From Nocardia asteroides (GTDB lineage: Bacteria > Actinomycetota > Actinomycetes > Mycobacteriales > Mycobacteriaceae): a stretch of 64,000 bases of DNA. The DNA is taken from positions 1,922,001-1,986,000 of the forward strand of contig NZ_LR134352.1 in NCBI RefSeq assembly GCF_900637185.1, given 5' to 3'. Below are positions 3,903 through 63,948 of this stretch, piece by piece. The number at the start of each line of letters is the position of its first letter. The first letter of the stretch is position 1. Made by a program: the position numbers and the translations under genes. Under the pieces are notes generated by a model that worked only from the letters and a program-made list of their open reading frames with translations, did not search any database and was not told the DNA's origin.

Positions 3903-4604
3903 ATGCCGTATTTGGAGCGCTCCGGTGATGTGTTCGTCCTCTACCTCGGAAACGAGGGCGAGACCGACAACGAGAACCGTTTCTCGCCGGGCTGGATCGA
4001 CGCCTTCCACGCCGCCCTCGACGAGGTCGAGGCGTCCGAGGGCGCTGCCGCGCTGGTCACCGTGGCGACCGGCAAGTACTACAGCAACGGCCTCGACACC
4101 GACTGGGTGTTCGGCAACCTGGACAAGATCCACGGCTACCTCGACCGCGTGCACAGCCTCTACACCCGGCTGCTGACCTTCCCGATGCCGACCGTCGCCG
4201 CGATCAACGGCCACGCCTTCGGCGCGGGCGCGATGCTGGCCACCTCGCACGACTTCCGGGTGATGCGTGGCGACCGCGGCTTCTGGTCGCTGCCCGAGGT
4301 GCACCTGGGCATGCCGTTCACCGTGGGCATGAACGGCCTGCTGAAGGGCAGGCTGAGCAACCAGGTGTGCGTGCGGGCCATGACCACCGGCCACCGCTTC
4401 GCCGCCGACGAGGCGATCGCCGCGGGCATCGTCGACGCCAAGGCCGACGCCGAGCAGGTGCTGGCCGCCGCGATCGAGCGCGCCGCCGCGCTGACCAGCC
4501 TGCGCAAGCCGATCACCCCCATCATCAAGACCGCGCTGCACGCCGAGACCCTCGCCGCGCTGGCCACTCCGGTCACCCCCGAGAACCTGCCGTTCGGCAA
4601 CTGA
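3903..4604 (+). CDS. Enoyl-CoA hydratase/isomerase family protein
   Basis: A 233-residue crotonase-fold protein, on the short side for the family. Fold markers are the oxyanion-hole region NGHAFGAGAML near 110-120 and LPEVHLGMPF near 137-146. The usual catalytic Glu pair of hydratases is not obvious, and the LPEV-LGMP pattern resembles Delta3,Delta2-enoyl-CoA isomerases of the plant ECI type. An isomerase is therefore at least as likely as a hydratase. It would act on acyl-CoA thioesters in beta-oxidation. The ATG at 3903 (MPYLERSGD) is preferred over an upstream GTG because the protein then begins as the family does. It lies divergently from punA. Confidence 0.82.
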   Translation: MPYLERSGDVFVLYLGNEGETDNENRFSPGWIDAFHAALDEVEASEGAAALVTVATGKYYSNGLDTDWVFGNLDKIHGYLDRVHSLYTRLLTFPMPTVAAINGHAFGAGAMLATSHDFRVMRGDRGFWSLPEVHLGMPFTVGMNGLLKGRLSNQVCVRAMTTGHRFAADEAIAAGIVDAKADAEQVLAAAIERAAALTSLRKPITPIIKTALHAETLAALATPVTPENLPFGN

Positions 4605-5855: not shown

Positions 5856-7144
5856 GCATTTCCGGCTATTCGGGCACCGCGCGCGCAGGCGCCGAGGCGC
5901 TATCGGTGGGTGTGGATTCCCACTCGATGATGCGTGAGAACGCGGTGTGTCCGACCATGCCGGACACCGGACGAACCACGATGCCAGGACCGGAAATCGT
6001 CGACGCGTGGCTGGCCGAACACACCGCCGACCTCGTGCAATGGCGCAGGCACATCCACGCCAACCCCGAATTGTCGCGCGCGGAGTTCGCGACCACCGAG
6101 TTCGTGTCGGGCTGGCTCACCAAGGCGGGACTGAGCTGGGAGGTGCTGCCCGGCGGCACCGGCCTGATCTGCGACCTCGGCCCCACCGACACCCAGCGGA
6201 TCGCGCTGCGGGCCGACATGGACGCCCTGCCGATGCAGGAGTTCACCGGCCTGAGCTTCGCCTCCACCGTGCCCGGCGTGTCGCACGCGTGCGGGCACGA
6301 CGCGCACACCACCGTGCTGCTGGGCACCGCGCTGGCGCTGGCCGAGGCGCAGGACGCGCTGCCGGTCGGCGTGCGGCTGGTGTTCCAGCCCGCCGAGGAG
6401 GTGATGCCGGGCGGTGCGCTCGACGTCGTCGCCGCGGGTGCGATGCAGGGGGTGGACCGGATCTTCGCGCTGCACTGCGATCCGCGGCTAGAGGTGGGCA
6501 AGGTCGGGCTGCGGACCGGCGCGATCACCTCGGCGGCCGACACCGTCGAGCTGGTGCTCGACTCGCCCGGCGGGCACACCTCCCGGCCGCACCTGACCAG
6601 CGATCTGGTCTACGCGATCGGCACCGTGATCACCGGCCTGCCCGGTCTGCTGAGCCGCCGGGTCGACCCGCGTACCAGCACCGTGATGGTGTGGGGCGCG
6701 GTCAGCGCGGGCAAAGCGCCCAACGCGATCCCGCAGACCGGCATGCTCACCGGCACCGTCCGCACCGGCGACCACGCCACCTGGCTGCTGCTGGAGCCGC
6801 TGGTCCGCGAGATCGTCGACAGCCTGCTCGCCCCCACCGGCGTGCGCTACCAGCTCAACTACAAGCGCGGCGTGCCCCCGGTGGTCAACGACGCGACCTC
6901 GGCCCTGATGTTCGAGAACGCGATCCTGGCGATGGGTCCCGACGCCCTGGCCGACACCCCGCAGTCCGGCGGCGGCGAGGACTTCTCCTGGTACCTGGAG
7001 GAGGTCCCCGGCGCCATGGCCCGCCTCGGCGTCTGGTCCGGCACCGGCGACCAATTGGACCTGCACCAGCCCACGTTCGACATCGACGAACGAGCCCTGG
7101 CGGTAGGCGTGCGAACCCTCACGAACATCGTCCTCCAGGCCTGA
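5852..7144 (+). CDS. amiA1: M20 family amidohydrolase, AmiA1-like
   Basis: A 430-residue zinc amidohydrolase of the hippurate/IAA-amino-acid hydrolase group. Motifs in order: RADMDALPMQE, HACGHDAHTT, FQPAEEVMPGG, and GGEDFSWYLEEVPG near the C-terminus. The GTG start overlaps the previous stop (GTGA), giving translational coupling with amiB1. The first 50 residues, before PGPEIVDAWL, are not conserved-looking, so translation might begin later, but the AGGAGG favours 5852. The product probably hydrolyses an N-acyl or N-aryl amino acid; the exact substrate is unknown. Confidence 0.88.
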   Translation: MSISGYSGTARAGAEALSVGVDSHSMMRENAVCPTMPDTGRTTMPGPEIVDAWLAEHTADLVQWRRHIHANPELSRAEFATTEFVSGWLTKAGLSWEVLPGGTGLICDLGPTDTQRIALRADMDALPMQEFTGLSFASTVPGVSHACGHDAHTTVLLGTALALAEAQDALPVGVRLVFQPAEEVMPGGALDVVAAGAMQGVDRIFALHCDPRLEVGKVGLRTGAITSAADTVELVLDSPGGHTSRPHLTSDLVYAIGTVITGLPGLLSRRVDPRTSTVMVWGAVSAGKAPNAIPQTGMLTGTVRTGDHATWLLLEPLVREIVDSLLAPTGVRYQLNYKRGVPPVVNDATSALMFENAILAMGPDALADTPQSGGGEDFSWYLEEVPGAMARLGVWSGTGDQLDLHQPTFDIDERALAVGVRTLTNIVLQA

Positions 7145-7205
7145 GCAGCACGGAAGCACATGGGTAACTCACCGGGCACGGGCTGACTCCACCCCCTCCA
7201 CGACC

Positions 7206-7236
7206 GCCGGCCGCCGACGAGAAGTCAGCGGCCGGC
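7206..7236. terminator. Hairpin between convergent genes
   Basis: GCCGGCCGC and GCGGCCGGC form a 9-bp stem around a 13-nt loop, between the convergent ends of amiA1 and the gamma-glutamylcyclotransferase-like gene. No T-run flanks it, so terminator function is inferred from position only. Confidence 0.45.
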
Positions 7237-7265
7237 GAGTCCGGCCAGAATTCGCGGAGAGGCGG

Positions 7266-7727
7266 TCAAGCGCCGGGGCCTACGTTCTTGCTGTTGCGGG
7301 TGCGCAGGGCGTGGACGTAATCCTCAGGCGCCCCGGCCTTCTCGGCCGCGTCCGCGATGACTCCGATGTACCGCGCCGAGGGCAGCCCGCCCTCGTAGGC
7401 GTCGAGTACGTACAGCCACGCCAGCCGGGACTCGCCCTGGGTGCCGGTGACCCGGATCCTGATCTTCTTGTGGATGCCGAAGTCCGAGCCCTCCCAGCGG
7501 TCGAGGCGGTCCTCGTCCTCGGGGGAGACGTCGTAGAGGACGACGAACACCCGGGAACCCGGATCCTCGACGACCGTGGCCAACGGCCCTTCCCAGCCGA
7601 TGTCGTCACCGGCGAAGGTCAGGCGCCAACCTTCCAGCCACCCGGTCCCGGACATGGGCGAATGCGGGCAGCGTTCCAGCATCTGCGTCGAGTCCATGTT
7701 GGACCCGTAAGCGGCATAGATCGGCAC
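7266..7727 (-). CDS. Gamma-glutamylcyclotransferase-like protein
   Basis: A 153-residue small beta-barrel protein. It begins VPIYAAYGSNMD, the signature N-terminus of the AIG2/GGCT fold, where YGSN forms the substrate cavity. The segments GTGWLEGWRLTF, WEGPLATVVEDP, VFVVLYDVSPEDEDRLDRWEG and LDAYEGGLPS closely follow mycobacterial Rv3304, which is in the same gene order. The GTG at 7727 is chosen because the family begins here; an in-frame ATG at 7814 would add 29 unconserved residues. Enzymatic activity on gamma-glutamyl peptides is inferred from the fold and has not been shown for this group. Confidence 0.78.
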   Translation of the reverse strand: MPIYAAYGSNMDSTQMLERCPHSPMSGTGWLEGWRLTFAGDDIGWEGPLATVVEDPGSRVFVVLYDVSPEDEDRLDRWEGSDFGIHKKIRIRVTGTQGESRLAWLYVLDAYEGGLPSARYIGVIADAAEKAGAPEDYVHALRTRNSKNVGPGA

Positions 7728-7936
7728 CTGAGGAACTGTAGCCAATAACAGCAGCGGAATTCCTGTCTCCCACCCAGATCGGCTCACGGTCACAGTCGTG
7801 GCGTGGTCCGACACGCGCGAACATGTTCACCGATCCGACCCGGGACCGTCACGGAAGACCTGAAAGGATGGGGGCACAGTACGGGCGAGTCCTCACAAGG
7901 GACGCGCCCGACCAGGCGAATACAGGGAGCGTGGCT

Positions 7937-9337
7937 GTGGCACGGATTGCGATCATCGGTGGCGGACCGGCGGGATACGAGGCGGCGCTGGTGGCCGCCC
8001 AGCACGGGGCCTCGGTGACCCTGGTCGATGCCGACGGCATCGGTGGCGCGTGCGTGCTGTGGGATTGCGTGCCGTCGAAGACCTTCATCGCCTCCACCGG
8101 GCTGCGCACCGACCTGCGCCGCGCCCGCGACCTGGGGATCACCCTCGACGCCAGTCAGGCGCAGGTGCATCTGCCCGAGGTGAACGGCCGCGTCAAGGCG
8201 CTGGCGCTGGCGCAGTCCTCCGACATCCGGGCGAAGCTGCAGGCCGCCGGGGTGCGGCTGCTGTCGGGCCGGGGTGAATTGGTCGGTCCCGCCGCCGGTT
8301 TGGCACACCGGGTGTCGGCGAGCCTGGACGACGGCAGCACCGAGGAGTTCGAGGCCGAGGTCGTGCTGATCGCGACCGGCGCCAGCCCGCGGGTGCTGCC
8401 CGGCGCCGAGCCCGACGGTGAGCGCGTCCTGAACTGGCGTCAGCTCTACGACCTGCAGGAACTGCCCGAGACGCTGGTGGTGGTCGGTTCCGGTGTGACC
8501 GGTGCCGAGTTCGTCTCCGCCTACACCGAGATGGGTGTGCGGGTGAAGCTGGTTTCCAGCCGCGACCGGGTGCTGCCGGGCGAGGACGCCGACGCGGCGC
8601 TGGTGCTGGAGGAGGCGCTGGCCGAGCGCGGCGTCGAGCTGGTCAAGCACGCGCGCGCCGACGCGGTGGAGCGCACCGCCGACGGCATCGTGGTGAAGCT
8701 GTCCGACGGCCGCACCGTCACCGGCTCGCATGCCCTGATGACCGTCGGTTCCACCCCGAACACCCAGCACCTGGGCCTGGACAAGGTCGGTATCGAGCTC
8801 GATCGCGGCGGTTACCTTCGCGTCGACCGGGTTTCGCGCACCTCGGTGCCCGGCATCTACGCCGCGGGCGACTGCACCGGGCTGCTGCCGCTGGCCTCGG
8901 TGGCCGCGATGCAGGGCCGCATCGCGATGTATCACGCGCTGGGCGAGGGCGTGAGCCCGATCCGGCTCAAGACGGTGGCCTCGGCGGTGTTCACCCGCCC
9001 CGAGATCGCGACCGTGGGCGTCAGCCAGACCGCCATCGACAACGGCGAGGTGCCCGCGCGCACGGTGATGCTGCCGCTGAACACCAACCCGCGCGCGAAG
9101 ATGTCGGGGCTGCGGCGTGGCTTCGTCAAGATCTTCTGCCGCCCGGCCACCGGTGTGGTGATCGGTGGGGTGGTGGTGGCGCCGATCGCCTCGGAGCTGA
9201 TCCTGCCGATCGCGCTGGCGGTGCAGAACAACCTCACCGTCACCGATCTCGCGCAGACGTTCTCGGTGTACCCGTCGCTGACCGGTTCGGTCACCGAAGC
9301 CGGGCGTTTGCTGATGCGCCACGACGACCTGGACTGA
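7937..9337 (+). CDS. lpdA: Flavoprotein disulfide reductase family, LpdA-like quinone reductase
   Basis: FAD/NAD(P)-dependent oxidoreductase of 466 residues. The FAD loop GGGPAG is at 8-13, a redox-type pair Cys39/Cys44 sits in GACVLWDCVPSK, the NAD loop is VVGSGVTGAE, and AGDCTG is the second FAD motif. At the C-terminus, where lipoamide dehydrogenases have His-x-x-Pro...Glu, this protein reads SVYPSLTGSVTEA, so the proton-relay His is absent. M. tuberculosis Rv3303c, in the same position, is a related quinone reductase rather than a lipoamide dehydrogenase. AGGGAG at 7924-7929 gives ideal spacing to GTG 7937; GTG 7931 is an alternative. Confidence 0.87.
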   Translation: MARIAIIGGGPAGYEAALVAAQHGASVTLVDADGIGGACVLWDCVPSKTFIASTGLRTDLRRARDLGITLDASQAQVHLPEVNGRVKALALAQSSDIRAKLQAAGVRLLSGRGELVGPAAGLAHRVSASLDDGSTEEFEAEVVLIATGASPRVLPGAEPDGERVLNWRQLYDLQELPETLVVVGSGVTGAEFVSAYTEMGVRVKLVSSRDRVLPGEDADAALVLEEALAERGVELVKHARADAVERTADGIVVKLSDGRTVTGSHALMTVGSTPNTQHLGLDKVGIELDRGGYLRVDRVSRTSVPGIYAAGDCTGLLPLASVAAMQGRIAMYHALGEGVSPIRLKTVASAVFTRPEIATVGVSQTAIDNGEVPARTVMLPLNTNPRAKMSGLRRGFVKIFCRPATGVVIGGVVVAPIASELILPIALAVQNNLTVTDLAQTFSVYPSLTGSVTEAGRLLMRHDDLD

Positions 9338-47669: not shown

Positions 47670-48386
47670 ATGAGCGACGTAATTTCTGGAACCCGTTCCG
47701 GTATGAACTGGTATCCGTTGTCGACCGCCGACGAAGGATCCCGGTGTACCCAGGCGACACTGGACGGGGTTCGAGCCTGGGCACTGGAACATCTCACCCA
47801 ACCGCTGGGCGAAATCGGCCGTGACGGCCCGGTCTGCCCCTACGTCGGGCCCGCGATGCGCCGCGATCTGATCTGGGTCGGCCGGGTCTCCGGCGCGCGC
47901 CCGTGGCCACCGTACGTCCGGCTGGTGATCGAGGACGCGCTCGAGCTGTTCTCGAAGCTGCCGCCCGAGACCGGCGGCTCCGCGGTCCTGCGCTGCCTGG
48001 TGACGGCCATGCCGGACCTGCCCGACTACGGGCTGATCGACGACCTGCACGCCGCGCTCAAGACCCGATTCGTGGAACGCGGCCTGATGCTCGGCCAGTT
48101 CTACCCCGGCTGTACCGAACCGGGCCTGTGGAACAAGGACTACCACCCGCTCGACGCGCCGATCCCGATGCTGGTGGTGCGCACGATGATGGCCACCGAC
48201 TTCCCGTTCCTGCTCCCGCGCCCCGAATGGATGTCGGCCTACGTCAAGAAGTTCGCGCCGGGTGTGCCCGAACACGTCCGGCGCATCGTGGTCGGCAGGC
48301 TGATCGCGAGTGCGAACACCGAGGTGCCCGCCTACGAGGAGGAACACGCGCTACAGCAGGTCGGCGCGGGGAGACGACAGCGATGA
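47670..48386 (+). CDS. DUF6875-like protein coupled to the NRPS
   Basis: A 238-residue soluble protein. Notable residues are [31 protein letters not shown] and [25 protein letters not shown] think this is a DUF6875 domain, a family that recurs next to NRPS and PKS genes in actinomycetes, but I recall no function. It has conserved Cys, His and Asp that could form an active site. AGGTG precedes ATG 47670. Its stop overlaps the start of the NRPS in the ATGA pattern, so the two are made in fixed ratio. That suggests direct involvement with the NRPS or its product. Confidence 0.65.
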
Positions 48387-51300
48387 CCCGCGAAGTGACC
48401 ACCGCGCCCGCCACCGAGCAGGCCGCGGTCGAGGAGTTTCCGCTCTCACCCGCGCAGCTGGGCATGTGGTACGCCCAGCAGCTCGACCCCGCCGTCCCGC
48501 TCTACGAGGCGCAGTACATCGACATGCGCGGCCCGCTCGACCTCGACCTCCTGATCGCGGTGTCGCAGCGGGTGAGCCGGGAGTTCGAGTCCGGCCTGTT
48601 GCGGCTGGTCGACACCCCCGACGGGCCGCACCAGGTGGTCGACCGGCGGATCGAGCTCACGATGTCCATCCTGGATTTCAGCGCCGCCGCCGATCCCGAA
48701 GCCGAGGCGATGCGCTGGATGCGCGCCGATGTCGCGGCGCCGATCGACCTGCTCGGAGATCGGCTGGTACTCACCGCGCTGATCCGCATCGCCCCCGACA
48801 GGGTGCTCTGGTATTCGCGCGCCCACCACATCGTGATCGACGGATTCGCCTCCGCCACAGCGCTGTATCGAGTCGCCGAGCTCTACAACGCGGCACTGGC
48901 CGGACGCACCGCCCCGGCGGGAACGGCAGCGAGCCTGCGCACCGTGCACGAGGCCGAGACCCGCTACCGGAGCAGCACCCGCTACGCCGCCGACGCCGAG
49001 TACTGGGCGCAGCGGATCGTGGACATGCCGCGGGAATGCAGCCTCGCCGAGGCCACCGCGCCGGCGCACGCGCTCGGCCGCCAGCATCGGGCCGAGTTGT
49101 CCGCGGCGACGAAGGCCCGGCTCGACGCGGCCGCCGCGCGCTTCGGAGTCGGCACCGCCGGTCTCACGATGGCGGCGCTGGCCGTCTACTACGCGCAGGC
49201 CACCGGCACCGAGGACGTGGTGCTGAGCCTGCCGGTCTCCGGCCGCACCACCGCCACGCTGCGCCGCTCCGGCGGCATGCTGGCCAATGTGGTGCCGCTG
49301 CGGGTGCCGGTCCGGGCGGACAGCACCGTCGCCGAACTCGTCGACGCGATCCGGGTGGAGGTCTCCGGCGCGCTGCGCCATCAGCAGTTCCGGCACGAGG
49401 AGATCCGGCAGGGCGAGGGCGACACCGGTGGGCGCGGTTTCGTCGGCCCGGTGGTCAACATCATGATGTTCCCGACCGAAGTCGACTTCACCGATGTCAG
49501 CACGAGCCTGCACGTGCTCACCTCCGGGCCCATCGAGGACCTGTTCGTCAACTTCTATCAGCACGGCGCGAACAGCCCCGTCCACGTGGACTTCACCGCC
49601 AACCCCGACCTCTACGGCGACGAGACCCTGGCCCGCCATCACCGCCGGTTCCTGGCCCTGTTCGAGGCGATGATCGACGCCGACCCCGGGACCGTGGTGC
49701 GCGAACTCGACTACTTCCTCCCCGACGAGCGCCCGCTGCGCGCCGGGCTGCGCGGTGTCGCCGCGCCCGCCCCGTGCCTGCTGGGCGATGTGCTCGCGGC
49801 GGGGGCGCGGGCCGCTGGCCCCGAGGCGACCGCCGTAGTCTCGGGACCCACTGAACTGACCTACGTTGCGCTGGAGCGTCTTTCGGACCGGCTCGCGCAC
49901 GAGATCGCCGGCTCGGGGGCCGGCCCGGAGTCCGCGGTGCTGGTCGCGCTGCCCCGATCGACGGAATCGGTGGTGGCGTTCTGGGGCGTCGTGCGTTCCG
50001 GGGCGGCCTATGTGCCGGTGGGTGTGGGGAATCCGGCGCCTCGGCTGGCGGCGATGGCGGCGGAATGCGGTGCGCGACTGGGTGTCACGAGCTCGCGATA
50101 CCGCGCGGACCTGCCCGACACGGTGACCTGGATCGTGCTGGACGAGCTGGACGGGAGCCCGTCCCACACCGCCGCGCTGCCGCGTCCCAGACTCGGCAAT
50201 CCCGCGTACATCGTGTTCACCTCCGGCTCCACGGGCACGCCCAAGGGTGTCGTCGTCACCCATTCCGGCGTCGCCTCGCTCGCCTCCGCGGTGCGCGAAA
50301 CCTACGGCGCCGACAGTGATTCGCGTGTCCTGCACTGCCTGAATCCGAGTTTCGACGCCTCGCTGCTCGAACTGCTCATCGCCTTCAGTGTGGGCGCCAC
50401 CTTGGTGATCGCGGACGCCGACTCGGTCGCCGGTGCCGGGCTCGCCGCGATCGTCCGCGAATCCTCGATCACCCAGCTGTGTTCCACGCCCGCGGTGCTC
50501 ACCACACTGCCGCCGGACGCGCTCGACGGGGTGCGCGCGGTGTCGACCGGCGGTGAGATCTGTCCGCCGGAGGTGGTGGCGCGCTTCGGATCCCGTCGCG
50601 CGCTGGTGAATTCGTACGGCCCTTCGGAGACCACAGTGGCCGCCACCTTCACCGAGCCACTGGCTCCGGGCCTGCGCGCCGGGATCGGAACACCCGTCCC
50701 CGGTGTCGTCCTGCACGTCCTCGATCGCCGGCTCCGTCCGGTGCCCGCCGGAACCGCCGGTGAGCTGTACATCGCCGGGCCCGGTGTGGCCCGGGGATAT
50801 GCCGGGCAACCCGGTGTTTCCGCGCAGCGGATGATCGCGAACCCGTTCGGCGCACCCGGGGAGCGCATGTACCGCACGGGCGACCTGGTGCGCTGGCGTG
50901 GGGTCGCGCCGGACGGTGCGTCGGGTTCCGCGACACGGTTCGTGCTGGAATACCTGGGCCGCAGCGACTTCCAGGTGAAGTTGCGTGGCATGCGGGTGGA
51001 GCCGGGCGAAGTCGATGCGATGCTGGCCACCTGCCCCGGTGTGGAATTCGCCGTGACCGTGGTGCGCACCGGTGCGTCGGGGCGGCCGATGCTGGCGTCG
51101 TATGTGGTTCCGGTCCACGCGCCGGACGCGCCCGCCCTCGACGGCCCGACGCTGCGGGACTTCTGCCTGGACCGGCTGCCCGCGCACCTCGTGCCTGCCA
51201 CCGTCACGGTGCTGGATGCCCTGCCGCTGACCGGCAACGGCAAGGTCGATCGGCGGGCGCTGCCCGAGCCCGAGATCGCACCGGCCGCGCCGCGCGCGGG

Positions 51301-54300
51301 CGGTGACGCGATCGAGCGGGCGCTGTGTGCCCTGTTCGCGCAGGTGCTCGGCGTGCCGGAGGTGTCGGCCGAGTCGTCGTTCTTCGCGCTCGGCGGCGAT
51401 TCGATCCTGTCCATCCAGCTGGTGTCGCTGGGCCGCGCCGCCGACCTGGTCTTCTCGGCCCGCGATGTGTTCGAGCACCCGACCCCGGCCGGTCTCGCCG
51501 CCGTCGTTGCGGCGCCGGGGGAGCGGGCGGCACTGCGCGAATTGCCCGGTGGCGGTGTCGGTTCCGTACCGCGCACGCCGATCGTCGACTGGCTGCTGAC
51601 CCGCCCGGGCTGGCGGCACTTCGCCCAGACCATGGTGCTGGCCCTGCCACCCGGCATCGACCGCGCCGAGCTGGTCCGCACCCTGCAAGCGGTCCTGGAC
51701 CACCACGACATGCTGCGCGTCCGCGTCACCGACGACAACCACCTCGAGGTTCCCGCCCCGGCCACCATCGACGCCACCACCGTCCTCCACCACCACCCCT
51801 GCGCCCACCTCGACACCTCCCTCCTCGACGCGGTGATGACTGCCGCCGTGAACCGCCTCGACCCTGAGGCAGGTGTCTCCGTCACCGCCACCTGGCTCGA
51901 CATGGATCGACCCGCGGCTGAGGAACTACGCGATGGTGACTACCGCCCCGATCCCGCCCCAACCGACAGCCACCTGACTCGCGCGGGCCGTGACACATCG
52001 GGCAATGGCCAACGGAGACTCGACCTCGGTACCGCGGCCGACCGCCTGGTGACCGACCTGGCCGACGGGGTGTCGGCCGGGATTCGGCCGGGCTTCGGCG
52101 TCCGCGGTGACGCCGATCGTCGTGCTGCGGCGAGTGGCGAAGGCGACCGTGACCGGCTGCTCGAGCGGGACGGCTCCGGTGGGCGGCTGGTGGTGGCTGT
52201 GCATCATCTGGCGGTGGACGCCGTCTCCTGGCGGATCCTGGTCGCCGACCTCATGGCCGCCTGGACCGCTGTCGAAGCGGGCGTCGCGCCGCAGCTGCCG
52301 CCGGTCGGCACCTCCATGCGTACCTGGGCACATGCCCTCGACACCGCGGCGGATGCGCCGGAGTGGGCGGACGAGCTGGACTACTGGAGCGAGGTGCTCG
52401 ATACCCCGCAGCCCCAGCTGGGTGAACGCGCGCTCGATCCCACGCGTGATGTGGGCGCGGGCATGGACCGGCTGGAGATCACCCTTCCGGCCGAAACCAG
52501 CGATCAGCTGGTCCGGTACCTGCCGACCGCCCTGCGCTGCGGGGTGGAGGAAGCACTGCTCGCCGCCCTGGTGTCGGCACTGGAGAACGGCACCACTCTG
52601 CTCATGCTGGAACGCCATGGACGCGACGAGACGGCGGTCCCCGGCGCCGACCTCTCGCGCACCGTCGGCTGGTTCACCAGCCAGTTCCCGATCGCGCTCG
52701 ATCTCGGCGCCGACCCGGACCCGGTGGCCATGGTCGCAGCGGTCAAGGAACAGCTGCGCGCGGTACCGCACGGCGGCTTCGGTTTCGGGTTGCTGCGGCA
52801 CCTGCGGCCGGACTCCGCGGCACGGCTCGCCGAAGCGGACGCGCCGCAGATCGGATTCAACTACCTGGGCCAGATCGCGGGCACCGACGCCGGAATGCCC
52901 TGGCTACCGGTCGGTGTCGCGGACCGGCTCGGTGGTGCCGGCGATGCCGAGCTGCCCGCGTCGGCGGTCCTCGCCCTGGATGCGGTGACCATCGAGACCC
53001 CTGACGGGCCGAAAGTCCATGCGATCTGGCGGTTTCCGTCCGCCGTCATCGCCCGCGACGAGGTGGCGCGGATCGCCGGGCGCTGGACCGAGACCCTGGC
53101 CGCGATCGCCGAGGCCGTCGCCGAACCCGGCGCGGGCAGGCTGACACCGTCGGACATCGCTCTGATGCCGGTGACCGGAACCCAGCTCGCCGACTGGCAG
53201 CGCCGCTATCCCGCCATCACCGACGTCTGGCCCCTCTCGCCACTCCAGCAGGGTCTGCTGTTCCACACCCGGCTCACCGCCGGTCACGCCGACAAGTACG
53301 CGGTGCAGGCCGTGTTCACCCTCGACGGCGACGTGGACCTGACCCGTCTGGAAGCCGCCGCTACCGCCCTCGTCCACCGGCACCCCGCCCTGCGCACCGC
53401 CTTCGTGACGACCTCCGACGCGCCCGCCCAGCTGGTACTGGACCAGGTGACGGTGCCGTGGCAAGCGATCGACGCGGACGAGACCGAGTGCGAGCGGATC
53501 GCCGCCATCGAGCTCGCCCGCCCGTTCGACCCCGCCCAGCCGCCGCTGCTGCGCTTCCTGGCCGTGCGATGCGGACCGCGCGAGGTCCGGCTGATCGTCA
53601 CCAACCACCACCTCGTCCTCGACGGCTGGTCGATGCCGCTGCTGCTGGGTGAACTCCTCGCGCTCTACGACACCGGCGGCGCCACCCTCGACGAGCCGGT
53701 CTCCTACGAGCGGTACCTGTCCTGGCTCGGCCGCCAGGACTGGGCCGCCGCGCGCACCGCCTGGTCGGCGGCACTGGCCGGCCTGGCGGGCCCGACCCTG
53801 GTCACCGCGGTCCGCGCCCCGCTCACCCACGACAGCGAACCCGGCGAGCTGCGCCGGGACGTGCCGCTGGATCCCGGCACCGCCGCCGCGCTGGCCCGGC
53901 ATCGCAGCGAGCGCGGCGTCACACTCAACACCGTGGTGCAGACCGCGTGGGCACTCCTGCTGGCCGAGCTGACCGGGCACACCGACCTGGTCTTCGGCAC
54001 GACGGTGTCCGGCAGGCCGCCGGACCTGCCCGGGGCGGAACGGATCGTGGGGATGCTGGTCAACACCGTCCCGGTGCGGATCGCGCTCACCCCCGACGAG
54101 CCCGTCGGCGACCTGCTGGCCAGGGTGCAGCGCGAACAAGGCGCGCTGGTGGACCGGAACATCCTGGGACTCACCGAGATCCAGTCGCTGGCCGGGCTGG
54201 GACCGCTGTTCGACACCAGCATGGTCTTCGAGTCGTATCCCATGGATGTCGACGCGCTGCGCGCGGCCTCGGCGCAGGCGCGCTTGCGGGTCCGCGACTT

Positions 54301-57300
54301 CCACGGCCGCGACGGCACCCACTATCCGCTGTGCCTGGCCGCCTTCGCCCACGCCGAGTTGCGTCTCCAGCTCACCTGCTCGGACCGGTACTTCGACGAC
54401 ACCGAGGCCGGCGCGCTGGCCCACCGGCTGGCCCGGATCGTGGCTCTGCTCACCGACCCCGCCCTGCCGGTGTCGGCGGTGCGCGGGGTGAACGGCGCCG
54501 AGATCCTCCGCGCCCGGCCGCGCCCGGTGCGGTTGCTGCCCGACCTGCTCACCGCGGGTGTGCGCACGGGCCGGATCGCGGTGACCGACGGCACGACCAC
54601 GCTCGGCTACCCCGAACTCGACGAACGGTCGAACCGGCTGGCACGCGCCATCGTCGCGGCGGGCGCGGGCCCGGAGGACGCGGTGCTGCTCGCGGTGCCG
54701 CGGTCGGCGGACTGGCTGCTCGCGGCGTGGGCGATCGCCAAGTCCGGCGCTGCCTTCGTCCCGGTCGACGTCGACCATCCCGCCGAACGCATCGCCACCG
54801 TGGCCGGTGACTGCGGCGCCCGCCTCGGCATCACTCTCGCCGAACATCGAAACAGCCTGCCCGCCAACGTCTCCTGGCTGGTGGTCGACGACCCCGCCAC
54901 CGTGGATGCGGTCGGCATGTACGCCACCGGGCCGCTGACCGACGCCGACCGCGTGCGCCCCCTGCACGCCGGACACCCCGCCTATCTGATCTACACCTCC
55001 GGCTCCACCGGCGTGCCCAAGGGCGTCATGGTGTCGCACGCCGGGCTCAGCGGGCTGGTCGCCGGTGTGGCCGCCCGCCTGCGTCCCGGGCCGGGCGACC
55101 GGTTGCTGCTGTGCATGAACCCGGCCTTCGACGCCGCGATCCTGGTGTGGCTCACCGCCTGTCACACCGGCGCGACCCTGGTGGTCGCCGCGCGGGACGT
55201 CGCCGCCGGTGACGCGCTGGCCGCGACCGTCACCGGCGCCGAGGTGACGCACCTCGTCGCCCCGCCCGCCGTCCTCACCACCCTGCCCACGGCCGCCGTC
55301 GCCCGGGTGCGTGCCATCGTGACCGGCGGCGAATCCTGCCCGCCCGAACTGGTCGCGCGCCTGGGCGCGGGTCGCGCGATGTTCAACTCCTACGGTCCGG
55401 CCGAAGCCACCGTGGCGGCCACGCTGAGCGCCCCGTTGAGCCGCGACGACGCCGCCGATCTGGGCGCGCCGCTGCCCGGTTGTGGTCTCGCGGTCCTGGA
55501 CAGCTGGTTGCGGCCGGTGCCGCCCGGCGCGGTCGGTGAGCTGTATCTGATGGGACCCGGCGTCGCGCGCGGCTATGTCGGGGCGGCCGCGCGCACGGCG
55601 GAACGGTTCGTGGCCGACCCGTTCGGCGCGCCGGGGGAGCGCATGTACCGCACCGGCGACCTGGTGCGACGGGTCTCGGCGCACCGGCTGAGCTATGTGG
55701 GGCGCAACGACTCCCAGGTGAAACTGCACGGCATCCGGGTGGAGCCCGGTGAGGTCGACGCGGCCCTGCTCGGCGCGCCCGGCGTCGCGCTGTCGGTCAC
55801 CGTGCCCCGGCCCGGACCGCACGGCGAGCAGACCCTGGCGTCCTATGTCGCACCCGTCGCCGGTGCGGAACCGACACCCACCGCGCTGCGGGAGTTCCTG
55901 GTGCGCAGGCTGCCCCGGCATCTGGTGCCCGCCACGGTCACCGTACTGGACGCGCTGCCGGTCACCGGCAACGGCAAGGTCGACGTGCGCGCGCTGCCCG
56001 AACCGCGGCACACCAGCGCCCCTTACGTCGCGCCCGTCGGCGCCGAACGCCTGGTGGCGCAGGTCTACGCGACCGTGCTGGACCGGCCCGAGGTCGGCGC
56101 CGACGACGACTTCTTCGCCCTCGGCGGCGACTCGCTCTCGGCCACCCGGGTGAGCGCCCGGCTCGGCGCCGAACTCGGGGTGGAGGTGCCGGTCCGCCTG
56201 CTGTTCGAGGCACCGACCGTGCACGGTTTGGCGGCCCGGCTCGGCGGTGACACCGTCCTGCGCGCCGGGGCCCTCGGCGGGCCGAGCGCCGGACCGCGAC
56301 CGGACCGGATTCCCCTGGCCCCCGCGCAACGGCGCATGTGGTTCGTCAACCAGTACGACCCCGGCTCCGGCGCCTACAACATCCCGGTCGTGCTGCGGCT
56401 GACGGGGCGTCTCGATGTCGCCGCCCTGCGGGCCGCGCTGACCGACGTCGTCGGCAGGCACGAGGCGCTGCGCACGATGTACCCCGACCACGACGGCATC
56501 GGCTATCAGGTGATCGTGGCCCCGGAGGAGATCGCCGACCACCTCGAGCCGATTCCGGTCACCCCCGCCGAACTGGATGCCGCCGTCTTCGCCTGTGTCA
56601 CCGAGGGTTTCGACGTCGCCGCCGCGGTTCCGCTGCGGGTCCGGCTGTTCCGCCTCACCGCCGACCGGCACGTGCTGGCGGTGGTGGTGCACCACATCAG
56701 CGCCGACGGCTACTCCATGGGACTGCTGGCCCGCGACGTCATGACCGCCTACACCGCCCGCCTCGCCGGCACGCCGCCGCAGTGGCCTCGCGAGGCGGTG
56801 CAATTCGCGGATTACACCCTGTGGCAGCGCGACCGGCTCGGCAGCACGGACGACCCCGAGTCCGCCGCGGGCAAGCAGCTCGCCTACTGGACCGAAACCC
56901 TGGCCGGACTGCCGGACCGGCTGGAACTGCCCGCCGATCGCCCGCGCCCGCCCGTCGCGTCCCTGCGCGCCGGCACCGTCCTGCGGACAGTGGACCCGGA
57001 GTTGCGCACCGCGCTGGAGGAACTCGCCGCGAGCAGGCGGTGCTCGCTGTTCATGGTGCTGCACAGCGCGCTCGCCGTGCTGTTCGCCCGGCTCGGCGGT
57101 ACCGACGACGTGGCCGTCGGCACCCCCGTCGCCGGGCGCGGCCTCGCCGAACTCGACGAGGTCGTCGGCATGTTCGTCAACACGGTCGTATTGCGGACCC
57201 GGGTGGGCGCCGCGACACCGTTCACCGACCTGCTCGACGACGTCCGCCGCACCGACCTCGACGCCTTCGCCCACGCGGAGGTCCCGTTCGAACAGCTCGT

Positions 57301-60300
57301 CGACCTGCTCGATCCCGCGCGGTCGGCGGCCCGGCACCCGCTGGTCCAGGCGATGCTGGTGTTCCAGAACCTGGGCGGCACCGAACTCGCGCTGCCCGAC
57401 CTGCGGATCGAGACCGTCGACCTGGATCAACGCAGCCTGCGCTTCGACCTCAGCCTCACCGTCGGCGACGACGGCGCGGACGGACTGTCGGTCCGGCTCG
57501 GCTACGCCACCGACCTCTTCGACGCGAGCACCGCCGCCAAGTTCACCGACCGCTGGTTGCGGGTGCTGCGCCGGATCGTCGTGAATCCCGCTGTGCCGGT
57601 AGGCGACATCGATCTCCTCGACGGTCGCGAGCGGGCGATCCTGCCCGGCGCCGCGCTCCCGCCGGTGACCGCTCCCGCCGTGCTGCCCGACCTGCTCGCC
57701 GCCGCCGTCACCACCAACCCGGACGGAATCGCGATCGTGGACGGCCCCGACCGGCTCACCTACCGCGAACTCGACGAGCGCTCGAATCGTTTGGCCCGCA
57801 CACTGATCCAGTCCGGAGCTGGTCCAGAGTCGCTGGTGGTCATCGCCGTCCGCCGCAGCGCCGATTCGGTCCTCGCCGTGTGGGCGGTGGCCAAGACCGG
57901 CGCCGCGTTCGTCCCCATCGACCCCGCCTATCCCGCCGAACGCATCGCCCAGATCCTCACCGACTCCGGTGCGACCCTGGGCATCACCTCGACAGGTGCC
58001 GAATCGATCCGGCCGTGGATCGCTGGCGCGGCCACCGCGGGAGCGTCATCCGGGGCGTCGGACGACCTGGGCGCGAACGGGACCGCCGATCAGTGCGTGG
58101 TCGAGCCGATCTCCCGGGCAGACGCGCAGTCCGTGCGCTGGTTGCTGCTCGACGACCCGGCCTTCGCCACGGAGTGCGCCGCCGTGTCGGACAAGACCAT
58201 CCACCCCGGCGAACTCCGCGCAGTGCCGCAACTCGCCAACCCCGCGTACGTCATCTTCACCTCCGGCTCCACCGGCCGACCGAAGGGCGTGGTCGTCACC
58301 CACGCCGGCCTGGCTAATCTGGTTGCCGCGCAACATGCCCGCCTCGACACGTCGACGGAATCGCGGGTGCTGCACGTGGCCTCGCCCAGTTTCGACGCCG
58401 CGGTGCTCGAACTGCTGCTCGCCGCCGGCGCCGCCGCCACCCTGGTGGTCGCCGGGCCGACCGCCTACGGCGGCGCGGAACTCGGCGAACTGCTCGCGCG
58501 CGAACGGGTCACCCATATCGCGCTCACCCCGTCGGCGCTGGGCTCGGTCGACACCGTCGACCACGAACACCTGCGCGGCATCATCACCGGCGGCGAACCC
58601 TGCCCGCCGGAACTCGTGCAGCGCTGGGCGGCGCCGGGCCGCATGCACTTCAACGACTACGGCCCGACCGAGGCCACCATCTGGGCCACGGGCACCGGAC
58701 CGCTGCTGCCCGGCTGCGAGATCACCATCGGCACCGCGGTTCCCGGCATCGCCACCCTGGTCCTGGACGACCGGCTGCACCCCGTCCCCGACGGCATCGC
58801 GGGTGAGCTCTACCTGGCCGGCCCGGCGCTGGCGCGCGGCTACCACGGCCGCCCCGACCTCACCGCGGCCCGCTTCGTCGCCGACCCGCACGGCGCGCCG
58901 GGCGAGCGGATGTACCGCACCGGCGACCTCGTGCGCAGGCGCGCGCACGTCCTGGAATACCTCGGCCGATCCGATCTCCAGGTGAAACTGCGTGGCCTGC
59001 GGATCGAACCCGGCGAGATCGAAGCGGCCCTCACCACCGATCCCGCCGTGCATCAGGCCGTGGTCACCGTGCACGCCGATGCCGCGCTCGGTGAGCTGCT
59101 GGTCGGCTACCTGGTGCCGGAGCGGGCGGCGGACTTCGCCGTGGACACGGTGAAAGAGGCACTGGCGCAGCGGCTTCCCTCGTACATGGTGCCGTCGGCG
59201 TTCGTCGTCCTCGACGCGCTGCCGCGCACCGGCAACGGCAAACTCGACCGCCGCGCCCTACCGGCCCCCGACCTCAGGTCCGGCCGGTTCCGTGCGCCGG
59301 TCACCCCCACCGAGCGGACGGTGGCCGACACCTTCGCCGAGCTGCTCGGCGTCCCCCGGGTCGGCCTGGACGACAACTTCTTCGCCCTCGGCGGCAACTC
59401 GCTCATCGCCACCAGGATCGCGGCCCGCCTCGGCGCCGCCCTCGACACCCGCGTCCCCGTGCGGATGGTCTTCGACGCGCCGACCGTGGCCGAGCTCGCC
59501 GCCGCCGTGCGCACCGCGGCCGCGGCGCCCGGCCCGCGCCCGGGACCTCGCCGCAGGCCCGACCGGGTCCCCCTCTCGGCGGCGCAGCGGCGCATGTGGT
59601 TCCTCAACCGGTACGACCCCACCTCGCCCGCCCACAACGTGCCCATCGCACTGGAACTCGACGGCGATCTCGAGTTCGACGCCATGCGGGCCGCCCTGAC
59701 GGACCTGGTGGCCCGGCACGAATCGCTGCGCACGGTCTACCCGGTCGACGCCGACGGTGAGCCGTACCAGGAGATTCGCCCGCCGGCCGCCGCGCGGGTC
59801 CCGGTCACGGTGGCCGACTGCGCACCCGACCGGATCCGTGACCAGGTGGCCGCCGAGATCGCGCACGGGTTCGACCTCACCACCGAACTTCCCCTGCGGG
59901 TCAGCCTGTTCCGCGTCGGTCACCGGCGCTGGGTGCTGGCGGTGACAATGCACCACATCGCCTCCGACGGCTGGTCGCTGGGCCCGCTGACCCGCGACAT
60001 GCTGGTGGCCTACGCGGCCCGCCTGGCCTGCACCCCACCCACCTGGTCGCCGCTGCCGCTGCAATACGCCGACTACGCGCTGTGGCAGCACGAACTGCTC
60101 GGCGCCGAGGACGACCCCACCAGCGTGTCGCACCGGCAACTCGAGTTCTGGCGCGCCACGCTCGACGGCCTGCCCGAGGTCTCGGCACTGCCCAGCGACC
60201 ACCCGCGGCCCACCGTGCTCAGCCACCGCGCGGGCCTGGTGGAGTTCGACATCGACGTCGCGATCCAGCGGCGGGTCAGGGAACTGGCGCGCTGGCACGG

Positions 60301-62080
60301 TGTCAGCGTGTTCATGGTCGCCCACGCCGCGCTGGCGGTGCTGCTCGCGCGGCTGTCCGACACCAGCGAAGTGGCCATCGGTTCGGTCATCGCGGGCCGC
60401 GGCGACGGCGAACTCGACGACCTGGTCGGCATGTTCGTCAACACCCTGGTGCTGCGCAGCCGCGTGCACCCGGAGACCACCTTCGACACCCTGCTCGCCG
60501 CCACCAAGGACGGCGACCTGGACGCGTTCGGCAATGCCGACGTGCCCTTCGAACGGCTCGTCGAGGTGATGGCACCGGCCCGGTCCACCGCGCACCATCC
60601 GCTGTTCCAGGTGCTGCTGGTGTTCCAGAACTTCGACCGGGAACCGGTGGAACTGCCCGGCCTGCGGGTCGACCCGGTCGAGATGCCGCCGGTGGGCGCG
60701 AAATTCGACCTGGAGTGGATGCTGGCGGAGAACATCGATGCCGACGGCGCGCCCACCGGCATCTCGGGCACCCTCACCTTCGCCCGCGACCTGTTCGAGG
60801 AGAGCACCGCGCGCACCCTGGCCGACCGGTTCGTCGACGTGCTCGACGCGCTCACCGCCGATCCGAACCAGGTGCTCGGCGAACTCGACGTCACCGCGCC
60901 GCCCGGGACCGTCGTGCATCCGGTGGTGCGCGTGCCCGCGCATCGCGTCGACCTGCCGTACCGGCCGCCGGTCACGTCGACCGAACAGGCCGTCGTCGCC
61001 GCGTTCGAAACGGTGCTCGATGTCGAGCGGGTCGGCTTGGACGACAACTTCTTCGAGCTCGGCGGCACGTCCATGGTCGCCATCCGGCTGGTGTCCCAGC
61101 TGCGGGACCGGCTCGGCGTCGCCATGCCGGTGCAGTGGATGTTCGGTGATCCCACGCCCGCCGCGCTCGCCCAGCGCCTCACCGACAGCGGCGACACCGC
61201 CGTCGACCCGGCCCTGCGCACCCTGCTCCCGCTGCGCGCGGGCGGCACCGGACCCGCCCTGTTCTGCGTGCACCCCGCGATCGGTGTCGCCTGGTGCTAC
61301 GCGGGCCTGCCCGGCCACCTCGACCCCGGCTTCCCGGTCTACGGCCTGCAATCACCCGGCATCGCGGCCGAACAACCCGATCGCCCGCTGCGCGACCGCG
61401 TGGCCCGCTACGCCGACGAGATCCAGGCGACCCAGCCCGACGGCCCCTACCGCCTGCTCGGCTACTCGGCGGGCGGACCGATCGCGCACGCCGTCGCCGT
61501 GGAACTCCAGCATCGCGGCGCCACCGTCGACGTGCTGGCCATTCTCGACGGCCGCGCCGATGTCGACCCGGCCAGCGCCACCGAGATGCCGCCGCCGGAA
61601 GCCCTGCTCGCCGAATTCGGCGGCCTCGACCCGGCCCTGGCCGACGACGCCGACCGCGCCGCCCGGCTGCTGCGCGAGACCGCCGTACCCGAACGAATCG
61701 CGCCGTCGGAGTTGCCGGCCGATTCCGCGGCGGACCACCCGGCCGCCGCACCGCTGCCCGGCGCCGACAACGAGGTCGACGCCGGCAACGACAACTTCCT
61801 CGGCGGCCTCACCGGCGCCGACCTGCGCCGCCTCTACGCCGACTACCAGCAGGTGGTGCGCGAGGCCGCCGACTACCGCCCCGGCGTGTTCACCGGTGAC
61901 CTGCTGTTCTTCAGCAGCACCAGCGCCCGCCCCGGCTACGAACCCAACGCCGACACCTGGCGCCCCTACGTCAGCGGCGCCATCCACGACACCCAGACCG
62001 GCCACGAACACAACCACCTCACCAGCGCCGACGCCCTCGCGGTGATCGGCCCCATCCTGGCCAGCCACCTCCGCGGCTAG
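48383..62080 (+). CDS. Tetramodular non-ribosomal peptide synthetase with terminal C-T-TE
   Basis: A 4565-residue peptide synthetase. Domains (key residues): starter C (HHIVIDG, His148), A1 (FTSGSTG at 612), T1 (LGGDS, Ser1007), epimerase (HHLAVD, His1274), C2 of D-donor type (HHLVLDG, His1742), A2 (2204), T2 (Ser2584), C3 (HHISADG, His2770), A3 (3292), T3 (Ser3673), C4 (HHIASDG, His3857), T4 (LGGTS, Ser4230), thioesterase (GYSAGG, Ser4362). There is no A domain between C4 and T4; the two are joined by about 35 residues. It should make an N-acylated peptide starting with a D-residue, released by the TE. The starter C resembles EntF. The product is unknown, and no MbtH-like protein is in view. 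Confidence 0.96.
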
Positions 62081-62119: not shown

Positions 62120-62896
62120 TCAGACGTAATCCGCCGCGGTCAGCAGGTGGGGCCAGAACTCCGACCACACTGTTTCGGCATCGTCGCCACGGGCGACGTG
62201 TTCGTAGAGGCGCCCGTACCAGCTGTCGACCGAGTCCGGTGACGTCACGGGTGTGCTCAGATCGGTCACCGGACAGGGCGGGAGGGAATGTCGGCTGCGA
62301 TCACCGAGCAAACGGAGCAGGGCCGACTGCGCTGACGAGTTCACGATTCCGGCGGTGAGCATTCCGGTCACCGCGATCCCGTCGAATTCACGAGCACACT
62401 CGAGCCCTTCCAGAACCGCTGAAGCCCATTGCAATTGACGCGTTCGCTCATCTCGATTCGGCCCGAACAATGCCTCTTTGTAGGCAACGACAGCGTCAGC
62501 GGGGTCGCAGGTGACCACAAGTTCGGGATGTAGGCCGAGCTCGATGGCAGCGGTCATCCACGACCGTAGCAACCACGGCATACGCGCGTCGTACAGGACG
62601 ATCGACCGCCCGTGTGGCAATTCCGCCAGGAATCTGGTGCAGCGTTCGCGCGCCGACCGATCGAAGGCCAGCGCCGCGAGAATCGCGAAGGCGGGCAGAT
62701 CAGGCCCGCGCCCACCGACATCCGCCAGCGCCTGCCGATTGATATCCACCACCGCTTGTGACTCGAAGAAGCCGTCGGGTGCTCGCGGGTGTCCTGCCGT
62801 ACTCGGGTAGGGAATCTCGAATCCGTTGGCTGAGAGGATACGACTCAGCCAGGCGCCGCCGGGGCCGCCGTCCCCGCTGATGATGACTAGTCGCAC
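62120..62896 (-). CDS. Sulfotransferase-like protein
   Basis: A 258-residue protein with an N-terminal ISGDGGPGGAWLSRIL segment that occupies the place of the PAPS-binding loop of sulfotransferases (often GxxRSGTTLL), then FFESQAVVDINR and LYDARMPWLLRSW, which mimics the second PAPS segment. The overall order fits small actinobacterial sulfotransferases, but the loop is degenerate. It may instead bind another ligand. Its GTG at 62896 overlaps the stop of the upstream gene by 10 nt. Placed beside the NRPS on the opposite strand, it is a candidate tailoring gene. Confidence 0.55.
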   Translation of the reverse strand: MRLVIISGDGGPGGAWLSRILSANGFEIPYPSTAGHPRAPDGFFESQAVVDINRQALADVGGRGPDLPAFAILAALAFDRSARERCTRFLAELPHGRSIVLYDARMPWLLRSWMTAAIELGLHPELVVTCDPADAVVAYKEALFGPNRDERTRQLQWASAVLEGLECAREFDGIAVTGMLTAGIVNSSAQSALLRLLGDRSRHSLPPCPVTDLSTPVTSPDSVDSWYGRLYEHVARGDDAETVWSEFWPHLLTAADYV

Positions 62897-63948
62897 CGGC
62901 CGATTTCGCGGTCGATCTCGGACAACACGTCGGACAGGTCCGCGCCCAGCCCGTTCAGCCGATGGGGGTCATGGAACAGTCGGAGCGTGCCGGGAACAAG
63001 TGTCCCCAGAGCCGCGGCGCTGTTGGCGGGGACGCGCATCGACGGGTCCACGGACATGCTCAGAATCGTGAGATAGCGAGCGATCAGGAGGGAGCATGTG
63101 CACGATGGTTCCGTGAACGCCGGGTCCCTCGCCGCCAGTACGCCCTGCAACTGCGGTACGGCCGAGCGGACCGCGCGATCGATCAGCGGGAAATGGTGAG
63201 GACGCATATGCAGCCAGGCCGCGAACCCCCGTTTCCACCAGATGCCATCGACACGTTCCAACACGTGCAGTGCCAGATCCTGATAGCGAATGTAGGGGAC
63301 TTCGGCAACGGAATCCGGCCACGGTCGCGTGGTCATGGGCACGGCGGTGTCGTCACGGAACAGCACCGATCGGCGTAGCCCACGAGTGTCGTTGCCGATC
63401 AGGCTGGGGGAGAGGTCGTGTTCGACCAGGGTTGGTACCACCGAATGCGCCACGATGCGCTCAGCCGCAAGGAATCTGCCCAAGGCGACGTCTTCGGTGA
63501 TGTACTGCCTGCCGCGGTAGGTCTCCGCGAAACGCAGTGCGATCTCGGAGGGCAAAGCCATTCCCAAGGTGGGCACGTAAGGGTCACCGACAGGCACCAG
63601 GTGGCGATCCATCAGGTGCGCGGCACGCGCGATCGCACCGGTTCGCGAACCCCATTCCGCGTAGAGGGAGACCGGCCCGTCGAGCGTCGCGACGAGCTCG
63701 TCGACCTTGGCTGCGAAGTCATGGCACACCTGTGCGTCGTCCATCAAGACCACATGCCACGGACGCCTGCTGGGATCGGCACGGCTCCACGCGGCCACCG
63801 CGGTCGGTAGTGCCGATGTCGGTTCGTCGGGGAAAGGGTCGAAGGCGATGGCGTCTTCGGGCAGCGACAGCCGAGCGCACAGTTCGGCGGCCTGACGTTC
63901 GCGTGACGGGTGTGCCATTACCGACAGTGAGAATTGTTCGCTATCCAT
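62887..63948 (-). CDS. Glycosyltransferase-like protein
   Basis: A 353-residue protein. After SLSVMAHPSRERQAAEL, the segment WHVVLMDDAQVCHDFAAKVDEL and then VSLYAEWGSRTGAIA is the pattern of a GT-A glycosyltransferase (DDA in place of DxD) as found in small actinobacterial and phage proteins. Later there is LGMALPSEIALRFAE and ITEDVALGRFL, with an acidic pair. Assignment to a glycosyltransferase family is tentative. It is the upstream gene of a two-gene operon, overlapping the sulfotransferase-like gene by 10 nt. ATG 63948 follows GGAAAACG. It and the next gene may modify the NRPS product. Confidence 0.55.
   Translation of the reverse strand: MDSEQFSLSVMAHPSRERQAAELCARLSLPEDAIAFDPFPDEPTSALPTAVAAWSRADPSRRPWHVVLMDDAQVCHDFAAKVDELVATLDGPVSLYAEWGSRTGAIARAAHLMDRHLVPVGDPYVPTLGMALPSEIALRFAETYRGRQYITEDVALGRFLAAERIVAHSVVPTLVEHDLSPSLIGNDTRGLRRSVLFRDDTAVPMTTRPWPDSVAEVPYIRYQDLALHVLERVDGIWWKRGFAAWLHMRPHHFPLIDRAVRSAVPQLQGVLAARDPAFTEPSCTCSLLIARYLTILSMSVDPSMRVPANSAAALGTLVPGTLRLFHDPHRLNGLGADLSDVLSEIDREIGRCD

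Follow-up and report, generated by a model that had tools for sequence, protein, structure and literature searches.

The synthetase gene and its last module

The window, which is the whole stretch of 64,000 nucleotides that was analysed, carries a large nonribosomal peptide synthetase (NRPS) gene directly behind a gene for a DUF6875 protein (Table 1). The NRPS is contained in an open frame of 4725 aa (P0001, 47903-62080). ATG 48383 is its likely start because the first bases from that codon overlap the stop of the DUF6875 gene. Pfam detected five Condensation, three AMP-binding and four PP-binding domains and one Thioesterase domain in the 4725-aa frame, with one Condensation stretch being an epimerisation (E) domain, and motifs and profiles together gave the order C1-A1-T1-E1-C2-A2-T2-C3-A3-T3-C4-T4-TE. 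The domain boundaries are approximate since variable inserts split the domain matches across relatives. The window's E1 has about 80 extra residues (about residues 1342-1425 of P0001, 51926-52177) that are missing in many relatives, and other relatives have long inserts of up to about 280 residues in E1, A3 or TE.

Table 1. Genes and NRPS domains at the locus, in window positions
Feature	Position	Strand	Basis or remark
DUF6875 gene	47703..48386	+	227 aa; probable heme enzyme; overlaps NRPS start by ATGA
NRPS gene	48383..62080	+	4565 aa from likely start ATG 48383
C1, starter-type C domain	48410..49732	+	HHIVIDG; clusters with first C domains of other NRPSs
A1, code DALCVTSVAK	49808..51277	+	motif search, hand-mapped code
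T1 (LGGDS)	51290..51517	+	Pfam and motif
E1, epimerisation domain	51545..52822	+	profile, motif, E clade in tree
C2, DCL type	53180..54472	+	family C2 domains within clade of C-after-E domains
A2, code DALVITSVAK	54545..56002	+	hand-mapped code
T2 (LGGDS)	56036..56257	+	Pfam and motif
C3, LCL type	56294..57637	+	Pfam and tree
A3, code DALAITDIWK	57665..59260	+	hand-mapped code
T3 (LGGNS)	59294..59512	+	Pfam and motif
C4, assigned LCL type	59555..60892	+	HHIASDG intact; Pfam, motif, tree
C4-T4 linker without A domain	60893..60955	+	21 residues; BLAST boundaries
T4	60956..61177	+	carrier serine in LGGTS (codon 61070-61072); motif; clusters with T domains preceding TE
TE (GYSAG) and stop codon	61214..62080	+	Pfam and motif

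The last module, C4-T4-TE, has no adenylation (A) domain, as an earlier note on this DNA had claimed. C4 and T4 are separated by 63 bases; the note had estimated the linker at about 35 residues, and its shortness is confirmed while the exact figure depends on where the domains are ended. No A domain is hidden within C4-T4 in the correct frame, and one in another frame is ruled out, as 63 bases are too short in any frame. Both HHxxxDG of C4 and the carrier serine of T4 are intact. With the start set at ATG 48383, the active-site residues named earlier, His3857 of C4 and Ser4230 of T4, are found at those positions (HH 4017-4018 and the GGTS serine 4390 in P0001, whose numbering minus 160 gives that of the earlier note). 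The core motifs searched for are present in the A domains of all three other extension modules, which agrees with the claim that these are intact. The codes of A1, A2 and A3 gave no confident substrate when read by the Stachelhaus scheme from columns that were mapped by hand using GrsA numbering. The A3 code pattern of the window NRPS is also found in 23 of 24 A3 rows.

The type of C4 was determined with a FastTree tree of 155 rows of C and E domains. The C4 domains of 14 family members form one subclade (support 100) nested within the clade of C domains located after a T domain (support 99), and they do not group with starter, DCL or E domains. Within a reference set of starter, LCL, DCL and E domains, C4 can thus be assigned to the LCL type, which answers the LCL versus DCL part of the classification proposed in the earlier note. 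The family C2 domains fall with C domains that follow an E domain and C1 falls with first C domains. A recent origin of C4 as a copy of C3 is unsupported, as C4 forms a separate subclade. The solved sequences that best match C4 are 5u89 and the PCP-C didomains 7kvw and 7kw0, which we take to be of the FscG type. T4 groups with ordinary carriers of A-T-TE modules, 13 of the 17 outside A-T-TE carriers being in the same clade, so its phylogeny is uninformative on the identity of the loader.

Conservation and natural variants of the family

The T4-TE sequence was used as a query against 118 genomes of the same genus, and some match at E up to 1e-40 was found in all 118, as TE domains are common. 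The family was represented by the 24 loci that scored best (at least 254.9 bits; 54-100% identity); one further locus at a contig edge, G133 with 250 bits, lies outside this set. In 22 of the 24 loci C4 is directly followed by T4-TE with no A domain and with gaps of 19 to 53 residues. HHxxxDG of C4 and the T4 serine are intact in all 22, and the TE motif is present in 21, the matched fragment of G123 not reaching the motif. The dN/dS values of nine gene pairs, 0.16-0.34 for C4 and 0.09-0.36 for T4, are like those of the other domains and show that purifying selection acts on C4 and T4 in these pairs. A named collection was sampled as the best 80 of 193 relatives, picked by short peptide patterns, and C-T-TE was found in 20 of the 77 loci kept, all titled Nocardia. 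A search through 200 genomes of the order gave matches with E of at most 1e-60 in two, both from the window's genus. The A-less terminal module is real and conserved, and decay of the module is ruled out by its conservation in the 22 loci and by the dN/dS values.

Several relatives have a different layout. G139 has the order C1-A1-T3-C4-T4-TE, in which A1 is joined to T3 near residue 921 and A3 is absent; A3 cannot load T4 there, and either A1 does so or the block is supplied from outside. It is possible that this A1-T3 junction is an assembly collapse at repeated A domains. G006 and G093 are without E1 and T3-C4, and A3 is followed directly by T4-TE. An A3-type domain can therefore sit directly before a T4-type carrier. 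Although these two have no E domain, their C2 still falls in the DCL class and their T1 in the class of carriers before E, and the short forms would most simply have lost E and T3-C4. Of these two losses that of T3-C4 is the less certain, because G006 and G093 are at the base of the TE tree rooted with the foreign TE of G025. In G025, a further locus, C4 (motif HHIAAGG) is followed by a foreign A-T-E-TE and the A3 code is changed. G025 has thus gained a foreign A-T-E-TE behind C4, and the family is not always A-less.

A two-gene unit with a DUF6875 partner

The upstream gene was not mentioned in the earlier note. Its product matches Pfam PF21780 with 192 bits against a gathering score of 24.5. 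According to PMC13307353, DUF6875 proteins such as ZigI, a member of the same Pfam family, are heme-binding enzymes that oxidise L-tryptophan. ZigI is placed there in a quinolone-terpenoid pathway, whereas the DUF6875 gene of the window is coupled to an NRPS. In an alignment of 71 rows Cys45 is found in 70 (one gap) and Cys137 in all. These two conserved cysteines are candidate counterparts of the heme-ligating Cys44 of AglA, one of the YqcI/YcgG heme enzymes, whose fold DUF6875 may share. A DUF6875 sequence profile found no relative among the solved sequences.

The DUF6875 gene precedes the NRPS in all 22 loci with upstream sequence, and three contigs start inside the NRPS. The family occurs in two chromosomal contexts, with nine of the 24 blocks in the window's context, fourteen in the other and G074 on a bare contig. 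The NRPS and the DUF6875 gene are the only gene families common to both contexts among genes called with a simple codon model, which may miss small genes. The conserved unit therefore lacks a gene for a dedicated loader. In the window's context the same small housekeeping-type gene is next downstream in seven of the nine blocks. Family 58, by reading of its sequence a molybdopterin oxidoreductase-like protein, was rejected as a member of the unit since it lies behind the NRPS in just one of the two contexts and is missing next to it in the other. Two overlapping genes on the minus strand downstream of the window NRPS (62120-62896 and 62887-63918) are missing there in the closest relatives, and the 62887-63918 protein has no Pfam match. 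Heterobactin was considered as a possible relative and set aside, since no siderophore genes adjoin the NRPS among the genes scanned.

What could the DUF6875 enzyme contribute to the peptide? Its probable role is to oxidise a tryptophan-like residue, which A1 and perhaps A2 would then use. Codes of the pattern DAL..[TV][SG]V are found beside DUF6875 in five single-module NRPSs and one two-module NRPS, and these six suggest the idea that such codes mean tryptophan. Four long NRPSs beside DUF6875 (L230-L233) have different codes, which argues against it. The single-module C-A-T-TE NRPSs L097, L234, L236, L237 and L238, which lie beside DUF6875 genes, all have codes DALL[AV][VT]GVM. At L242 (G022:C20:120001-140000, frame from 2919) a two-module NRPS with a terminal TE carries DUF6875 as a C-terminal fusion, and at L243 (G030:C42:80001-99500) a divergent DUF6875 gene lies near two A-T frames of 606 and 595 aa that are separate from each other. 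No description of the DUF6875-NRPS pairing was found in the open-licence papers searched, and no paper on the window NRPS was found among them; they include a Nocardia genome survey (PMC7413640). The earlier note's view that the window lacks a clue to the product is only partly right, with the DUF6875 gene as a clue that lies within it.

Loading of the last carrier

One way of serving T4 offered in the earlier note was through another A domain of the enzyme itself, and this is the best reading left. We give about even credence to the proposal that T3 and T4 are both charged by one A domain from within the protein, most likely A3 upstream of T3. A3 would charge the two carriers, C4 would join the T3-bound peptide to aminoacyl-T4, and TE would release an N-acylated peptide, acyl-D-X1-X2-X3-X3, in which the last two residues are alike. 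The natural variants fit loading within the protein and do not decide the matter. T4 phylogeny is silent on the loader, and T4 could also be charged in trans by A domains of other NRPSs, by a Pls/PosA-type protein or by a ligase with a weak score.

Two known systems resemble this proposal. According to PMC10192304, a C3A3T3C4T4 construct of the fungal ferrichrome NRPS SidC has both its T3 and its T4 loaded by A3. SidC has the same order A3-T3-C4-T4 with a module 4 that has no A domain, but it is fungal, ends in C domains and makes hydroxamate siderophores, whereas the window NRPS ends in TE and its loading is predicted. In capreomycin and viomycin biosynthesis, CmnI and VioI are actinobacterial A-less proteins with C and T that are served by the A domain of another module, and CmnA-A1 loads CmnI between proteins (PMC12400406). 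CmnI differs from the window module in being a protein of its own, in having T ahead of C and in its N-terminal extension, while C4-T4-TE is fused behind other modules. The window NRPS would most likely be a bacterial case of loading between modules inside one protein, as a variant of the loading already known from SidC and CmnI.

The alternative that T4 is charged in trans by an outside A domain, which may come from another NRPS, a Pls/PosA-type A-T protein or a stand-alone ligase, is less likely, though it has a precedent in syringomycin. SyrE ends in the same three domains, C-T-TE, and receives its block in trans from SyrB1, with SyrC as the shuttle (PMC8949500). The A-T protein SyrB1 is encoded in the syringomycin cluster, whereas no SyrB1-like stand-alone A-T protein was found beside the NRPS in either of the two contexts scanned. 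The layout of G139, which has A1 only and keeps C4-T4-TE, is as expected if the block never comes from A2 or A3. The window's own genome (one contig) has many other NRPS A domains; it gave 125 matches to TIGR01733 and 83 C-domain matches. All TIGR01733 matches over the cut-off are in frames of at least 1192 aa. The 1192-aa frame is C-A-T, and a frame of 1327 aa encodes a Pls/PosA-type A-T protein, which is the only C-less A-domain protein over the curated NCBIfam cut-off in that genome. The eight weaker matches that were scanned have NCBIfam names of CoA/AMP ligases, one of them near DHB-AMP ligase and under the cut-off. In the relative G082 every over-cut-off A domain is in a frame of at least 1321 aa. 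G139 has one in a 560-aa frame, which counts against loading within the protein. The genome-wide search proposed earlier for stand-alone A domains thus found none that is dedicated and over the cut-off in the window's genome or G082, and the search for MbtH-like genes found two, both far from the NRPS. Beside the MbtH gene at L219 (G000:C1:6918000-6928500) lies a tandem A-like ORF (5986-9099, minus strand) without the TSGSTG core. The lack of a dedicated A domain over the cut-off in these two genomes, the ligase names and the missing TSGSTG core argue against supply in trans, as does the DUF6875 gene being the only partner common to both contexts in the output of a simple gene finder, which can miss small genes. 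The idea in the earlier note of a fourth block from an outside enzyme is unsupported for a dedicated supplier, while an A domain of another NRPS may still provide it, and the note's interpretation overall is partly supported.

It is rather improbable that C4-T4 is not an elongation module at all, with C4 idle or catalysing another reaction (transfer, ester formation or oligomerisation) and T4 relaying the chain to TE. No A domain in the module serves T4, and G006 and G093 keep T4-TE without T3-C4, so release does not need C4. However, the active-site motif and carrier serine are kept in every A-less locus and selection on C4 and T4 resembles that on the other domains. The LCL placement also speaks against the ester-forming or oligomerising C4 suggested before, in a tree whose references were starter, LCL, DCL and E domains. 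NRPS repeats can collapse in assemblies and G028 has a split frame, but this junction recurs in 22 loci from different genomes and in 20 named Nocardia loci. That already refutes a sequencing mistake, a misassembly or recent decay in this genome as the cause of the gap, and we give such a cause practically no credence.

A broader proposal, which builds on loading from within the protein, is tentative. The unit A-T3-C4-T4-TE may let whichever A domain precedes T3 charge two carriers, and its partner would be a DUF6875 heme oxygenase producing a tryptophan-type block in oxidised form. The relatives with A1-T3-C4-T4-TE (G139), A3-T4-TE (G006 and G093) and C4 with a foreign A-T-E-TE (G025) would then show loss and regain in the A-less module. 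If one A domain does serve two carriers, product prediction by counting A domains misses one residue in this Nocardia family. The natural deletions and swaps of the family are ready comparisons for the origin of A-less modules, and the coupled DUF6875 gene ties NRPS products to a family of heme enzymes that has been newly reported.

Two other NRPSs were observed in the window's genome. One, at L099-L100 (G000:C1:1986001-2026000), is a C-A-T-E-C-A-T-TE enzyme on the minus strand about 20 kb downstream of the window NRPS, and a DHB-AMP-ligase-like gene is present there (669.8 bits, under the cut-off). The other, at L218 (G000:C1:4432500-4448500, frame from 9371, plus strand), is a 1999-aa NRPS with C-A-T-C-T and a reductase-like end. 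Its last T again has no A domain before it, and a ligase frame of 483 aa is found a few kilobases from it.
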